Positions 6,997 through 19,761 of a stretch of 37,662 nt of DNA are shown here, piece after piece. Under the pieces are notes generated by a model. It saw nothing but the letters and a program-made list of their open reading frames with translations. It was not told the DNA's origin and did no database searches. Source of the stretch: a virus. Positions within the stretch are counted from its first letter, which is position 1; each line of letters opens with the position of its first letter. The stretch is taken from the IMG/VR virus record IMGVR_UViG_3300042390_000108, positions 1 to 37,662 of that record; one strand, written 5' to 3'. The position numbers were made by a program, and so were the translations under genes.

Positions 6997-7182
6997 ATGG
7001 AATATCACATCCCCGCTGCCGATTACAGCAGCATCAACGTCAGCGCCTACGAAAAGGGCGTCTGGATCAGCCTCAATCGCCACTGCGCTTACACATCCAC
7101 CCATCTTTCAAAAGAGCAGGCCGAGCAATTGCGTGACGCCCTTATCGCTTTGACTCAGGAGACAACAGATGCAGCACAGTAA
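6997..7182 (+). CDS. small protein of unknown function (61 aa)
   Basis: This is the first gene of the rightward replication operon. AAAGGACA lies about 7 bases before the ATG. The N-terminal half looks beta-rich (SSINVSAYEKGVWISLN), and the C-terminal half is helical (SKEQAEQLRDALIALTQE). It ends 14 bases inside the next gene. No family recognised; it could be an early regulator or a partner of the DUF2800 nuclease. Confidence 0.65.
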   Translation: MEYHIPAADYSSINVSAYEKGVWISLNRHCAYTSTHLSKEQAEQLRDALIALTQETTDAAQ

Positions 7183-8278
7183 CATCGTCGGCGGCTCGAC
7201 CGCCAAGCGCGTCATCAACTGCCCTGGCAGTGTGGCGCTGGTGCAGAAGATGCCGCCAAAGCCCAGCAGCGAACACGCCGACCGTGGCACCCTGCTGCAC
7301 GACGCAATCGCTTTCATCTTGGAAGACCAAAGCGTAGACGTAATCGGGCGCACATACGAGGGCCAAGTCCTCACGCAAGACTTGTACGACGAAAAGATCA
7401 TGGTGGCGCTGGCGCTGCTTGATGAAGTAGACCCCGATAAGGAGATGCTCTATGAAGTTGAAACACGTGTGGGATTTGGCGATCTCTTACCTAATGTTTT
7501 CGGTAGCACGGATTTGGTTGGCCGTATTGGCAGCCGTGCTATTGTTTTGGATTGGAAGTTTGGCGACGGTGTGGTGGTTGATGCAGTAGAGAACGAGCAG
7601 CTCATGTTCTACGCAGCCGCCGCAATGCACACCGATGCGCTGAAGTGGGCCTTCGAGGGCGCAACCGAGATCGAGTGCGTGATCGTGCAGCCGCCTATGA
7701 TTCGCCGCTGGACGACAACGCCCGAGCGCATCGCTAAGTTCGAGCAAGAGCTGGTGCAGGCCGTCAAGGCCGCGCAGCAACCGGATGCTGCGCTCAAGTC
7801 CGGCGACCATTGCCGCTGGTGCGCAGCCAAGCCCGTGTGCCCGCTTATGACGGGTGCTGTTGACCGCGCGCTGCAAGTGCAGTTGAAAGAGATCGACGCC
7901 GACATGCTCGGCCAGTATCTGGCCAAGGCCGACGTGCTGGAGAGCTGGATCACCGACCTGCGGGCGCTGGCGTTCCAGTTGCTTGAGAAAAATGTGCCCG
8001 TGCCGGGGTATAAACTTGTACAGAAGCAAGCGCGGCGTCAGTGGACGGACGAAGCAAAGGCCGCAACCATGCTGGTCGACGCAGGCATCCCAGCCTACAA
8101 ACAAGAGCTGATTTCTCCAGCAGTCGCTGAGAAGTTGCTCAAAAAGAGCAAGTTGACACTGCCTGACGAACTCGTCAAGTCGGTGTCATCAGGCACAACA
8201 CTGGCAAGCGAGGATGACTCCCGCCCAGCAGTGTTGCAACTCGGCGACCTTCGGGCCGCTATTTCTAAACTCCAGTGA
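7169..8278 (+). CDS. DUF2800 family nuclease, Cas4/AddB-like PD-(D/E)XK (369 aa)
   Basis: The features are those of phage DUF2800 proteins: an N-terminal Cys18 in INCPGS, GTLLHDAIAF near residue 40, the catalytic-type LDWKFGDG near 130, then QLMFYAAA, and a Cys cluster CRWCAAKPVCP (Cys215, Cys218, Cys224). One N-terminal and three C-terminal cysteines are the arrangement that holds an iron-sulphur cluster in Cas4 and AddB nucleases, so an Fe-S exonuclease is a fair inference. It is followed by a presumed ssDNA-binding protein, a family A polymerase and a primase-helicase, a recurring phage replication and recombination set. The ATG lies within the preceding gene. Confidence 0.88.
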   Translation: MQHSNIVGGSTAKRVINCPGSVALVQKMPPKPSSEHADRGTLLHDAIAFILEDQSVDVIGRTYEGQVLTQDLYDEKIMVALALLDEVDPDKEMLYEVETRVGFGDLLPNVFGSTDLVGRIGSRAIVLDWKFGDGVVVDAVENEQLMFYAAAAMHTDALKWAFEGATEIECVIVQPPMIRRWTTTPERIAKFEQELVQAVKAAQQPDAALKSGDHCRWCAAKPVCPLMTGAVDRALQVQLKEIDADMLGQYLAKADVLESWITDLRALAFQLLEKNVPVPGYKLVQKQARRQWTDEAKAATMLVDAGIPAYKQELISPAVAEKLLKKSKLTLPDELVKSVSSGTTLASEDDSRPAVLQLGDLRAAISKLQ

Positions 8279-8287
8279 AAGTAGACT

Positions 8288-8905
8288 ATGGAACTCGCAA
8301 CATTCTCTAAAGCAAACCTCCCCGCCCTGACCAACGCTCTGCGTAACCTCCAACCCGTTGGTGGTGACGTTGGCGTGGCCATCATCAAGATGGACAAGGG
8401 TGGCCATTGGGTCTTCGGTGCAGACCAGACCGAGATCGAAGAAGGCTCGACTTGGGCCGTCAATCCTTTGTCGTTCGTCCACGGCTTTATCGCCTGGGGT
8501 GACGGTGAGGTGCTCGGCGAAAAGATGGTGGGCATCGCCAACCCTCTGCCAGAACTCGACGAAGCGCCTCCCGGTGCTAAGAAGGGCTGGGAGTCGCAGG
8601 TCGGCATGTCAATGAAGTGCGTCTCTGGCGACGACAAGGGCATGGAAGCGCGCTACACCGTGACATCCGTCGGCGGTAAGCGTGCGGTTCAGACCTTGGC
8701 CGTGGCCCTGGCTGATCAGGTGGACAAGGACCAGACCAAACCAGTGGCCATCGTGCGCCTGAAGAAGGACCATTACCAGCACAAGTCCTACGGCAAAATC
8801 TACACCCCGGTCTTTGAGATCGTGGAGTGGATGAGCATGGACGGCGAAGCGCCTGAAGCTGCGCCTACTGAAGAAGCACCAGCTCGCCGCCGCCGCGCAG
8901 CGTAA
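8288..8905 (+). CDS. putative ssDNA-binding protein, DUF2815-like position (205 aa)
   Basis: The gene sits between the DUF2800 nuclease and DNA polymerase, the place usually occupied by DUF2815/Enc34-type ssDNA-binding proteins. The sequence is compatible with an OB-like beta fold (VGVAIIKMDKGGHWVFGAD; KPVAIVRLKKDHYQHKSYG). The C-terminus is unusual: an acidic Pro/Ala/Glu linker followed by ARRRRAA, a basic tail where many SSBs have an acidic one. The assignment rests mainly on gene order. The ribosome site is weak (GAAAGTAG). Confidence 0.6.
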   Translation: MELATFSKANLPALTNALRNLQPVGGDVGVAIIKMDKGGHWVFGADQTEIEEGSTWAVNPLSFVHGFIAWGDGEVLGEKMVGIANPLPELDEAPPGAKKGWESQVGMSMKCVSGDDKGMEARYTVTSVGGKRAVQTLAVALADQVDKDQTKPVAIVRLKKDHYQHKSYGKIYTPVFEIVEWMSMDGEAPEAAPTEEAPARRRRAA

Positions 8906-8921
8906 ATAGTAGAGGCCGAAA

Positions 8922-9013
8922 GCGGAGGTTGTGAAAGCGTTTATACGCAACGGTTGGCGCCGTTACTGACTAAGAGCCACATTAATGTGTAGGTCAGGAT
9001 TCACAACCTCCGT
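8922..9013 (+). ncRNA. structured RNA element with a four-way (cloverleaf-like) junction
   Basis: The segment lies in the 163-base gap before the polymerase gene. Bases 8922-8935 pair with 9000-9013 in a 14-bp stem (one G-U); its core is GGAGGTTGTGAA against TTCACAACCTCC. Inside are three hairpins in close succession: 8937-8948 (GCGT/ACGC, loop TTAT), 8949-8964 (AACGG/CCGTT) and 8966-8997 (CTGAC/GTCAG, with an inner CACAT/ATGTG). Only one base is unpaired before the first hairpin, none between the first two, one before the third and two after it. It is not a canonical tRNA: the closing stem is too long, the middle loop has six bases and no T-loop is present. It could be a leader regulating the polymerase, a free small RNA, or a DNA cruciform used in replication. 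Confidence 0.65.
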
Positions 9014-9031
9014 CAGTAGGTCTTTTTTCTG

Positions 9032-9052
9032 ATGCCCAGTGACAGTGGGCAT
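9032..9052 (+). promoter_or_regulatory. hairpin in the polymerase leader
   Basis: ATGCCCA, a 7-base loop and TGGGCAT form a perfect 7-bp stem. It ends five bases before the AAAGGAA ribosome site of the polymerase gene. It follows a T6 run at about 9023-9028, so it is not a terminator in this direction. A role in ribosome access or mRNA stability is possible. Confidence 0.5.
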
Positions 9053-9068
9053 TGGAAAAGGAACGACT

Positions 9069-10997
9069 ATGCTGTGGATAGATTTCGAGACAAGATCGCG
9101 CTGTGACCTGAAGGCCAAGGGCGTCTACAACTACGCGCAGGATGCGAGCACCGATGTGCTGTGCATGTCCTACGCCTTTGGCGACGACGAAGTGCAGACG
9201 TGGCTGCCGGGTCAGCCCTTCCCTCAAGAAGTCCGTGAGTGGCGAGACCTGATCTACGCCCACAACGCCGCCTTCGAGCGCCTGATCTTCTGGTATGTCC
9301 TCCAGATCGACTTCAAACTAGAGCAGTTCGTCTGCACCGCAGCTCAGGCCCGCGCCAACTGTGCGCCTGGCTCGCTGGAGGACGTGGGCCGCTTTGCTGG
9401 CGCTGACATGCGCAAGGACCACCGTGGTGCCCAATTAATCCGGCTGCTGTCCGTGCCTCAGCCTAACGGCCAGTTCCGCGAGGACGCCGCCCTGATGGCC
9501 GAGATGGTGCGCTACTGCGAGCAGGACGTCCGCGTGATGCGTGTCGTCAGCAAGTCGCTGCGCCCGCTGTCCGATGACGAGCTGACCGACTACCACACCA
9601 ACGAACAGATCAACGACCGTGGCGTGCTGGTGGACGTGCCGCTGTGCCACGCCGCCGTGAAGTATTCCGCTGACGAGACCGTCGAGATTCAGCAGATCGT
9701 CACCGAGGTAACCGATGGCGCGATCACCAGCGTGCGCTCGCCCAAGATGCGCGAGTGGGTGCTGGAGCGTGTCGGGCCTGAAGCCAAGAAACTGATGTGG
9801 AACGGCGAGAAGTATTCGATTGACAAGACTGTGCGAGCCAACCTGCTCGCGATGGAAGACCCCGATGAAATTCCGCCCCATGTTGCAGACGTTATTCAAT
9901 GCGCAGACGACCTCTGGGCGTCTTCGGTTGCGAAGTTCAACCGCCTCTCGAATCTCGCCGATGAAGAAGATCAGCGAGTCCGAGGCGCTTTCGTTTTTGC
10001 TGGAGGGGCTGCCACCGGACGAGCGTCGAGCTATGGCGCACAGGTTCACAACTTTACCCGCAAGTGCGCCAAAGAGCCTGATGAAGTACGCCACGCTATG
10101 GTGCGTGGCCACGCAATCACACCAAGATTTGGAAAACGCATTACAGATGTGCTCAAGGGGATGCTCCGGCCCGCGCTGATTGCCAAGCCCGGCCACGTCC
10201 TGATCGCCTACGACTGGTCGGCCATCGAGGGCCGTGTGCATCCGTGGCTGTCCAACTGCCCGGCAGGTGAGGCCAAGCTGGATGTGTTCCGGTCAGGTCT
10301 TGACCCGTACAAGGTCAACGCGGCCGCAACGTTCGGCGTGTCCTACGCCGATGTCACTTCGGAGCAGCGCCAAGTGGGCAAGGTGCAGGAGCTGGCCCTC
10401 GGGTTCTTGGGCGGCGCGGGCGCGTTTGAGGTGTTTGGCCGGGCCTACGGCATCCGGCTGACCGCTTCGGAGGTCAACAAGGCCGTCGAGGGCTGGCGCA
10501 GGGCGAATCCTTGGGCGCAGGCCCACGGCCAGCAGCTCGAAGCCGCCTACCTTCGGGCGATGCGAAACAAAGGTTTTGAGTTTGCCGCAGGTCGCATTGT
10601 GTACTTGTTCGACGGTCAGACCCTCTGGTACAGTCTGCCCTCTGGCCGGGTTCTGTGCTACCCCAACGCCAAATTTGACGCCGAAGGCAACGTGACATAC
10701 ACCAAAGCAGCATGGAAACCCGCCGCCGACGCCAAGGAGTGGCCCCGCGCCCGTCTGTGGCGTGGCCTGGCTTGCGAGAATGTCACGCAGGCGACAGCAC
10801 ACGACATCCTGCGCCACTCACTGCGCCAGCTTGATGGCGTGGTCTTACACGTTCACGACGAGATCGTTGTCGAGTGCCCGGCTCACGAGGCCGAGGCAGT
10901 CGCCGCCCACATGCACCAGATCATGTGCAGCCCGCCCGCATGGGCCGAGGGCTTGCCCTTAGCCGCCGAGGGCGTCACCACCACCCGGTATTCGTAA
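9069..10997 (+). CDS. family A DNA polymerase with 3'-5' exonuclease domain (642 aa)
   Basis: The exonuclease motifs are DFETRS (residues 5-10), AHNAAFER (64-71) and YCEQD (149-153). The polymerase motifs are A, AYDWSAIEGR (about 379-388); B, QVGKVQELALGFLGGAGAF (about 436-455); and C, VHDEIV (about 594-599). Phage polymerases of this DUF2800-linked group have the same short form without the 5'-3' exonuclease domain of bacterial Pol I. The frame is open upstream to a GTG at 9039. I chose ATG 9069 because AAAGGAA lies directly upstream and MLWIDFETRS puts the first exonuclease motif at the usual place. It replicates the phage genome together with the primase-helicase downstream. Confidence 0.95.
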   Translation: MLWIDFETRSRCDLKAKGVYNYAQDASTDVLCMSYAFGDDEVQTWLPGQPFPQEVREWRDLIYAHNAAFERLIFWYVLQIDFKLEQFVCTAAQARANCAPGSLEDVGRFAGADMRKDHRGAQLIRLLSVPQPNGQFREDAALMAEMVRYCEQDVRVMRVVSKSLRPLSDDELTDYHTNEQINDRGVLVDVPLCHAAVKYSADETVEIQQIVTEVTDGAITSVRSPKMREWVLERVGPEAKKLMWNGEKYSIDKTVRANLLAMEDPDEIPPHVADVIQCADDLWASSVAKFNRLSNLADEEDQRVRGAFVFAGGAATGRASSYGAQVHNFTRKCAKEPDEVRHAMVRGHAITPRFGKRITDVLKGMLRPALIAKPGHVLIAYDWSAIEGRVHPWLSNCPAGEAKLDVFRSGLDPYKVNAAATFGVSYADVTSEQRQVGKVQELALGFLGGAGAFEVFGRAYGIRLTASEVNKAVEGWRRANPWAQAHGQQLEAAYLRAMRNKGFEFAAGRIVYLFDGQTLWYSLPSGRVLCYPNAKFDAEGNVTYTKAAWKPAADAKEWPRARLWRGLACENVTQATAHDILRHSLRQLDGVVLHVHDEIVVECPAHEAEAVAAHMHQIMCSPPAWAEGLPLAAEGVTTTRYS

Positions 10998-17269: not shown

Positions 17270-19279
17270 ATGGATCAAAACGAATTCGATGAGCCGACAG
17301 AGAACGACAAAGAGCTGACGGCTTTTGTGGTTGACCATTGCGACCGCTGGCGCGACTACCGCAACACCAACTTTCTGGACGATTACCTCGAATATGAGCG
17401 TATTTTCCGTGGTGAGTGGGCGGCTGAAGACAAAACACGCGACTCTGAGCGATCAAGAATCGTGACGCCTGCGACTCAGCAGGCAGTTGAGACCCGGCAC
17501 GCGGAGATCATGGAAGCGATCTTCGGGCAAGGCGACTTTTTCGACATTGAAGACGACCTCAAAGACATCAACGGCAACCCGTTGGACGTTGAAGTGCTCA
17601 AATCGCAGCTCACAGAGGACTTCAAGCAAGACAAGATCAGAAAAGCGATTGATCAAATCGAGCTGATGGCTGAAATCTACGGTACGGGCATTGGCGAGAT
17701 CGTCGTGAAGACGGAAAAGGTGTTCGAGCCTTCCACGCAGCCGATTCCTGGGCAAACGAGTCAAGCGGCCATCGGTGTGGTGGAAAAAAGCCGGATTGCG
17801 GTCAAGATCATGCCCGTCAACCCGAAAAACTTCCTGTTTGACCCCAACGGCACGTCTGTAGACGACTGCATGGGCGTGGCGATTGAGAAATATGTGGGCA
17901 TCCACAAGATCGTCGAGGGCATCGAGAAGGGCATTTACCGTAAGGTAAACATCACCCCAACGTATGAGGACACCGATCTGGAGCCGACGCAGGAGATGAG
18001 CCAGTACCGCGACGAAAAGGTGCGTCTGCTGACGTACTACGGCCTGGTGCCCCGCGAATACCTGACGGACAAGGACGAAGAAGTCGAGGAGCTGTTCCCC
18101 GAAGACAGCGCAGCCGACGACTATTCGGACATGGTGGAGGCGATTGTCGTGATCGCCAACGACGGTTTGCTGCTCAAAGCAGAAGAAAACCCGTACATGA
18201 TGAAGGACCGTCCGGTCATCAGCTACCAAGACGACACGGTGCCCAACCGGCTGCTGGGCCGTGGCACGGTGGAGAAGTCCTACAACATGCAAAAGGCGAT
18301 TGACGCCCAAGTGCGCAGTCATTTGGACTCGCTGGCGCTGACGACCAGCCCTATGATGGGCATGGACGCCACCCGTCTGCCACGCGGCGCTCGGTTCGAG
18401 GTCAAGCCAGGCAAGGCGTTTATGGTCAACGGCAACCCTGCCGAGATTCTCTACCCGTTCAAGTTCGGCGAAACCAGTCTGAACAACCTGAACACGGCAA
18501 AAGAGTTCGAGCGCATGTTGTTGCAAGCCACTGGCACGCTGGACAGCCAAGGCATGGTGAGCCAAGGCAACCGCGACGGCGCGGGCATGAGCATGGCGGT
18601 CGCCACGATCATCAAGAAGTACAAGCGCACGCTGGTCAACTTCCAAGAAGACTTCCTGATCCCGTTCATCCAAAAGGCGGCGTTCAGGTACATGCAGTTT
18701 GACCCCGAGCGTTACCCAAGCGTGGACATGAAGTTCTTGCCAACGGCAACTCTGGGCATCATCGCCCGCGAGTACGAGCAGCAGCAGTTCATTGGCCTTT
18801 TGCAGACACTGGGTCCAAACACCCCGGTGCTGCCGCTGATCTTGAAGGGCATCTTGAACAACTCCAGCCTGACCAACCGCTACGAGCTGATGGCCGCGCT
18901 CGACCAGATGAGCCAGCCGGACCCACAAGCGGCGCAAATGCAGCAGGCTCAGCAAGAGTTGGCCATGCAAGCGGCGCAAGCTCAGATCGCGGTCAACACG
19001 ACGCAGGCCGAGCAGAACCGGGCAGAGGCGGCCAAGCTGATGACTGAGGCGCAACTGATGCCGCAAGAAGTGCAGGCCAAGGTGATCTCGGCGACTACGA
19101 AGAACCTGCCAACGGGCAACGAGTCGGCTGAGTTCGACAAGCGGGTGAAGATCGCTGAGTTGATGCTTAAAGAGGAAGACATCAAGAACAAAGGCAAGAT
19201 CGTCCAAATGCAGATGGCCGAGAAGGCCAATCAAAGCAAAAAGGACGAGGACTTCCTTAAAAGCATCATAGGCGACTGA
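17270..19279 (+). CDS. portal protein (669 aa)
   Basis: AGGGGT precedes the ATG. Size, position after the large terminase and sequence style (MDQNEFDEPTENDKE; ILYPFKFGETSLNNLN; LLQATGTLDSQGM) fit podovirus portals of the P22-like group. The portal forms the dodecameric ring through which DNA enters and leaves the head. Residues of about 545-620 are Gln/Ala-rich and helical (QAAQMQQAQQELAMQAAQAQ), consistent with the barrel or crown region. The stop overlaps the next start as TGATG. A long open frame on the opposite strand is a shadow of codon bias. Confidence 0.93.
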   Translation: MDQNEFDEPTENDKELTAFVVDHCDRWRDYRNTNFLDDYLEYERIFRGEWAAEDKTRDSERSRIVTPATQQAVETRHAEIMEAIFGQGDFFDIEDDLKDINGNPLDVEVLKSQLTEDFKQDKIRKAIDQIELMAEIYGTGIGEIVVKTEKVFEPSTQPIPGQTSQAAIGVVEKSRIAVKIMPVNPKNFLFDPNGTSVDDCMGVAIEKYVGIHKIVEGIEKGIYRKVNITPTYEDTDLEPTQEMSQYRDEKVRLLTYYGLVPREYLTDKDEEVEELFPEDSAADDYSDMVEAIVVIANDGLLLKAEENPYMMKDRPVISYQDDTVPNRLLGRGTVEKSYNMQKAIDAQVRSHLDSLALTTSPMMGMDATRLPRGARFEVKPGKAFMVNGNPAEILYPFKFGETSLNNLNTAKEFERMLLQATGTLDSQGMVSQGNRDGAGMSMAVATIIKKYKRTLVNFQEDFLIPFIQKAAFRYMQFDPERYPSVDMKFLPTATLGIIAREYEQQQFIGLLQTLGPNTPVLPLILKGILNNSSLTNRYELMAALDQMSQPDPQAAQMQQAQQELAMQAAQAQIAVNTTQAEQNRAEAAKLMTEAQLMPQEVQAKVISATTKNLPTGNESAEFDKRVKIAELMLKEEDIKNKGKIVQMQMAEKANQSKKDEDFLKSIIGD

Positions 19280-19761
19280 TGGACGCCAAGAAAATCCTGC
19301 TGTCTGGCGCGTCTACCGAAGCAAAACTGGCGGCTATCGCTATTTTGCTTGGTAAAGAGCTGCCTGAAATTCGCGCCAAAGTCTACGAAGTCAAGAAGCT
19401 GCAAGGCCCACAGGGTGAGCCTGGCAAAGATGGCAAAGACGGCATTGTGGGTAAGGACGGGGCTGATGGCAAAGATGGGGCTGCTGGCCGTGACGGCAAG
19501 GACGGCGTTGACGGCGACGATGGAGACAGAGGCGTCTCTATCGTAGGCGCAAAGATCGACTTTGACGGCTCCTTGATCCTGACGTTTTCTGATGGCACTG
19601 TCACCAACGTCGGTGAAGTCGTTGGTGAGCGCGGTGCGGCTGGCTTGTCGGGACCTGCGGGTCCGGCAGGGCCTCCAGGTGAAGGTTTGCTTAACCTTGA
19701 TGGTGGTTTTCCGAACAGCGTGTACGGCGGCGTTAACCCAATAGATGCAGGTGGTGTGTAA
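19279..19761 (+). CDS. collagen-like virion protein (160 aa)
   Basis: After a helical N-terminus (about residues 1-40, [20 protein letters not shown]) come two Gly-X-Y blocks. The first (about 43-85) is charged: [13 protein letters not shown] and [16 protein letters not shown]. The second (about 122-136) is [16 protein letters not shown] short beta segment ([19 protein letters not shown]) lies between them. Such proteins form trimeric collagen rods in phage fibres. The alternation of charged triplets can set register in a triple helix. It is coupled at both ends (TGATG with the portal gene, TAATG with the fibre gene), so it may be a fibre stalk or adaptor made in step with them. Confidence 0.8.

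Follow-up and report, generated by a model that had tools for sequence, protein, structure and literature searches.

Does the densely structured gap that precedes the DNA polymerase gene of a phage contig serve that gene, yield an RNA in its own right, or function as DNA? The window analysed here, a whole stretch of 37,662 nucleotides (IMG/VR record IMGVR_UViG_3300042390_000108), carries such a gap, in which an initial annotation had placed a compact four-way junction at positions 8922-9013 and had considered all three roles. We find that the segment 8911-9025 belongs, as a single unit, to a widespread modular family of phage RNAs, in which a constant frame surrounds a variable inner part, or head, that takes the form of a four-way junction at this locus.

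Structure of the unit in the window

The fold proved to be exactly as annotated. A 14-bp stem (8922-8935 paired with 9000-9013) with hairpins at 8937-8948, 8949-8964, and 8966-8997 is both the minimum free energy (MFE) and the centroid structure of the segment (92 nt, -41.8 kcal/mol), and with a z score of -5.5 and none of 200 shuffles more stable, this nesting of helices is indeed improbable by chance. The entire gap, 8905-9068, reaches -69.6 kcal/mol (z score, -6.7). The extent, however, had been drawn too narrowly: 8922-9013 represents only the variable inner part, and the conserved parts, an outer stem P1 of 7 bp (8911-8917/9019-9025) and an asymmetric internal loop of GAAA opposite CAGUA between P1 and the 14-bp stem, enclose it. 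The complete unit at 8911-9025 comprises P1, the loop-E-like internal loop, and the 14-bp stem with its three hairpins; folded as 8908-9025, it has a z score of -5.7. It lies among the following features.

8288..8905, + strand: upstream gene, 205 aa, probable OB-fold single-stranded DNA (ssDNA)-binding protein; 5 nt separate the stop codon from P1
8911..8917, + strand: P1 5' strand, AGAGGCC (folding, shuffle test; P1 covaries across the family)
8918..8921, + strand: GAAA, 5' half of the loop-E-like internal loop (shared by all collected units, in part because the search patterns required it)
8922..8935, + strand: P2 5' strand, 14-bp stem; first pair G.U, like subclass II (fold)
8937..8948, + strand: head hairpin 1 (fold)
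8949..8964, + strand: head hairpin 2 (fold)
8966..8997, + strand: head hairpin 3, with an internal loop (fold)
9000..9013, + strand: P2 3' strand (fold)
9014..9018, + strand: CAGUA, 3' half of the internal loop; most relatives have GAGUA or AAGUA (motif, shuffle test)
9019..9025, + strand: P1 3' strand, GGUCUUU; enters a U tract at 9023-9028, usual 3' ACC absent
9025..9059, + strand: separate conserved hairpin, CUGAUGCC...GGCAUUGG; likely polymerase Shine-Dalgarno sequence in its 3' arm
9069..10997, + strand: family A DNA polymerase gene (Pfam DNA_pol_A, 2.6e-19)

An internal loop of GAA opposite AGUA is the signature of the sarcin-ricin or loop E motif. Dinucleotide shuffling of the window gap, repeated 60,000 times, never produced the nested frame (P1 >=5, GAAAG...[CU]NAGUA, P2 >=5). 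Unlike most members, the unit in the window has CAGUA and no 3' ACC, and in its G...U-CAGUA it resembles the second subclass. Both of our family covariance models miss it, R1 being too strict and R2 being limited by head length; R2 also misses, or matches only in part, other members whose heads are long, such as L029 and L021, so that neither model is informative on membership here. When the head pattern of the window was sought elsewhere, we recovered only near-identical relatives and one chance match (L240). Compared with the near relative L016, the unit differs by six substitutions that break no pair (3.1 expected) and include two one-sided, pair-preserving changes.

The annotated cloverleaf outline without tRNA signature is in agreement with the absence of any tRNA call in the window, at this locus by either ARAGORN or Rfam. 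An intrinsic terminator (GC stem, loop of 3 to 8 nt, T run) was not called in 8200-9200, but a closing stem that carries a long head lies outside this definition.

The 205-aa product of the upstream gene belongs to PHROG 9528, labelled nucleotidyltransferase, and has no Pfam match above cut-off. Its AlphaFold model (pLDDT, 78) gave a weak Foldseek list that consists mostly of SSBs, the best of them with an E value of 0.06 and none significant. Hence, from the predicted structure, we infer that it is probably an OB-fold ssDNA-binding protein.

A constant frame in many phages

The window RNA belongs to a large and apparently undescribed phage RNA family with a constant frame and many exchangeable heads. 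Pattern scans recovered the frame, P1-GAAAGC...GAGUA-P1'-ACC, in more than 200 viral-contig records, which is a lower bound. The first pattern, GAAAGCGGATGC...GCAGCGAGTA, gave at least 120 viral-contig matches, most of the listed ones with different interiors, and a second subclass, in which GAAAGC...GUGAGUA is combined with a P1 held to GGGG/CCCC, also gave at least 120; by our own estimate, about one match would be expected by chance. Among the matches listed, ACC follows P1 in 85 of 138 class I and 46 of 94 class II units and is neither universal nor defining. In bacterial genomes, the first pattern occurred in 20 contigs, mainly of beta-proteobacteria, a few of these being chance matches; three genome matches without a convincing P1 (L225, L230, and L233) were dropped as such. 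The remaining matches of pattern B likewise resembled chance. The frame is thus frequent in environmental phage contigs and nearly absent from the 50,697 phage records searched, where only MW202879, an environmental genome, carries the pattern; the plasmids scanned had none.

The suggestion that this might be a new class of phage RNA is supported, in that the RNA is structured, its frame is conserved in many phages, and the Rfam scan that had been proposed returned no family at the window locus. In the Rfam searches as a whole, with the gathering cut-off or a relaxed one, no relevant family emerged, including the DUF-named motifs, STAXI, and abiF, and only tRNA was called, at other loci. The suggested link to RNA motifs named after DUF2800 accordingly found no support; DUF2800 simply marks the gene two positions upstream of the unit. 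A literature search for the core sequence returned unrelated texts only, and a search for such RNAs found no description, the 2017 list of 224 motifs being compared only through Rfam. Because the heads share no common sequence, such a family is easily overlooked.

Covariation supports P1 as a helix. In a set of 80 frames with heads trimmed, 89% of the P1 cells were paired and all five pairs had changed on both sides, with 120 both-side cells against 39 in shuffles (0 of 500) and at most 41 in slid registers. The core nucleotides do not vary in this set because the search pattern fixed them; units that were found through an unrelated motif have the same core, with occasional changes. In subclass II, the inner stems are longer than they are with exchanged tails. 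The expectation of compensatory changes in related phages therefore held for P1 across the family; the window head itself offers no instance of double-sided compensation.

Units often lie 5 to 17 nt past the stop codon of the upstream gene, on the same strand, and in many loci the next start codon is close downstream. The upstream proteins include the non-homologous DUF669, SSB, Enc34-type, gp2.5, RecT, Gam, and exonuclease families, which function in ssDNA binding or recombination, while the downstream proteins are diverse (polymerases, MazG, exonucleases, and others) and do not have SSB families among the commonest. The upstream gene, often encoding an ssDNA-binding protein, is the more constant neighbour. 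Several units were present in 6 of the 44 records with a model match, and some loci have tandem arrays of two to four different units. Loci found via an unrelated downstream motif have one to four tandem units, mostly after the stop codon of an SSB-like gene.

The same gap in related phages

For comparison, 80 related loci were found via the polymerase protein, the gap being taken from the upstream gene to the polymerase or an inserted gene. The window-type RNA recurred in L016, L035, and L208, and an RNA of a second kind was present in L021, L022, L025, L026, L029, L031, L036, L051, L056, and L060. At L039, flanks and frame are nearly identical to those of L016, L035, and the window (GTAGAGGCCGAAAGCGG ... 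AGTAGGCCC), with a class I unit at the same position and matching frame bases, and the head is of the second kind. This locus shows that the constant frame holds different heads. L010 has no such RNA, although the adjacent 300 nt of its upstream gene are 94% identical.

In many relatives, the gap holds just the short CUGAUGCC...GGCAUUGG hairpin without the junction RNA; in others it holds a plain GC hairpin, and simple hairpin-plus-T sequences occupy the site of the unit in, for example, L066, L072, and L067. The short hairpin, at 9025-9059 in the window, is kept with a covarying stem in relatives devoid of the junction RNA (equivalents in L002-L062), its loop-proximal pairs varying between C-G, A-U, and U-A, and it may couple translation of the polymerase to the upstream gene. 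Eight further loci (L014, L015, L018, L024, L028, L050, L064, and L068) have other structured inserts in the gap, closed by GGGG/CCCC and without the E-loop signature. Accessory genes were seen downstream of the RNA or hairpin site and ahead of the polymerase in L007, L008, L009, L022 (PAPS reductase), L025, L063, and others. This interval is a gene-exchange hot spot.

Diversity of the heads

Among the matches listed, we counted 139 distinct heads in 114 clusters. One and the same head can occur in different frames and in different phages, and the loops of recurring heads are conserved. When MFE pairs were transferred between 174 pairs of related units, comparisons that are mutually dependent and include the frame, we observed 54 double changes against 12.8 expected by random substitution and 232 broken pairs against 443 expected. 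Some heads are tRNA-like: L176 was called by both Rfam and ARAGORN and L238 by ARAGORN, and tRNA-like arms can be recognized by eye in L125 and L070.

Possible roles of the family

The best explanation, which we put forward tentatively, is that the heads are interchangeable recognition domains that act in trans on a rigid, stabilising frame transcribed with the upstream gene. The RNA would be made as part of the upstream transcript, the frame would form a rigid platform of the loop-E type, which lends the RNA stability and presents the head, and the head would most likely bind or mimic a host target, possibly related to defence or tRNA. Such a target would explain the rapid replacement of heads as well as the tRNA-like examples. 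A decoy or recognition role is suggested by the fast exchange of heads with the frame kept, by heads that reappear in unrelated phages, and by the tRNA-like heads. In its broadest form, a phage-wide system of presented RNAs with a recombining repertoire of heads, single or arrayed, each of which opposes or exploits a host factor of its own, the idea is somewhat unlikely. If true, it would be the RNA counterpart of the variable gene cassettes with which phages resist host defence, and heads that act on host factors would yield an inventory of contacts between phage and host at the RNA level, together with natural binding RNAs already mounted on a scaffold.

The strongest rival, though rather unlikely in our judgement, is a cis-acting 3'-end element that stabilises or processes the SSB-like message upstream, separates it from downstream expression, and replaces plain GC-rich hairpins. 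The location of many units directly past the upstream stop codon on the same strand, the hairpin-plus-T sequences at this site in relatives, and the continuation of the window P1 into a U tract would all fit such an element. However, most units have no U tract, no terminator-like site was called around the window unit, tandem arrays of different units would be superfluous, and a mere stabiliser has no need of heads that keep their pairs and recur with conserved loops. Regulation in cis of the downstream gene, here the DNA polymerase, by an attenuator or riboswitch-like element is improbable: the next start codon is near in many loci and the second hairpin of the window is predicted to sequester a likely ribosome-binding site, but the frame precedes many unrelated genes, and the same polymerase gene is preceded by different heads in close relatives and by none in several. 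The control of the polymerase that had been envisaged is therefore not specifically supported.

Equally, the proposed DNA structure for starting replication is disfavoured. A cruciform, or a hairpin of single-stranded DNA, that takes part in replication or recombination and is bound by the neighbouring ssDNA-binding protein would suit the adjoining replication and recombination genes, and the STAXI motif, which occurs near SSB genes, has in the past been considered in this light (PMC2864571). Yet near relatives lack the element, and it is the sense strand that folds better. The opposite strand of the window unit is the weaker (-40.6 versus -50.6), and the sense strand is the more stable in 193 of 225 whole units; this is partly an effect of the invariant core, which limits the evidence to heads alone, where the sense strand prevails in 143 units against 77 (p 1e-5). 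This bias among the heads points to RNA rather than DNA, and the excess of G.U over A.C among P1 cells (14 versus 6) is a weak hint in the same direction. We consider a DNA role very unlikely.

Comparison with known systems

An architecture in which a constant frame surrounds a head that is both hypervariable and covarying matched no Rfam family. Racr RNA-based anti-CRISPRs (PMC10651486) are likewise small phage non-coding RNAs that vary between phages, and they mimic a host RNA, as the heads described here may do. What they mimic is the CRISPR repeat, however, a resemblance that did not come to notice here, and descriptions of them include no constant E-loop frame. The ToxI RNAs of type III toxin-antitoxin systems and abiF RNA (RF03085) are also small, structured, and sometimes phage-borne (PMC12373285); these protein-binding RNAs are repeats of one motif with a toxin gene adjacent, whereas heads differ between the units described here, which have no Rfam match and beside which no toxin gene came to notice. 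STAXI (PMC2864571) is again a structured, repeated element near SSB genes, but it consists of pseudoknot repeats, whereas the present frame is a closed hairpin that contains a loop-E-like internal loop. The sarcin-ricin or loop E signature, found for instance in the lysine riboswitch (PMC2258182), is a common structural module and does not define a family. Likeness to tRNA is seen in the arms of some heads, such as those mentioned, and in the ACC that often follows P1; most heads, including that of the window, are not tRNA-like.

Accompanying motifs and proteins

A second structured RNA motif, GGGGCTAGA..TCTAGTGACC, apparently undescribed and with a possible pseudoknot before it (L086, L100, L124, and L373-L402), was met in 33 viral loci, 27 of which have E-loop units at most 1.5 kb away; it had no Rfam match in L086 and L100. 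A third motif, AGTGGCATANCGCACACGG within a long closing stem, occurs in 25 viral loci (L100, L118, and L403-L421). In L100, L384, L388, L390, and L392, a small cysteine-rich protein with a signal-like N terminus (MKYLIALWLA...) is encoded between the RNA units and the GGGGCTAGA..TCTAGTGACC motif. In the window itself, the DUF2800 protein (7169-8278) also matches the PD-(D/E)XK nuclease family PF12705, and a protein with a collagen-like repeat (19279-19761) adjoins the portal gene.
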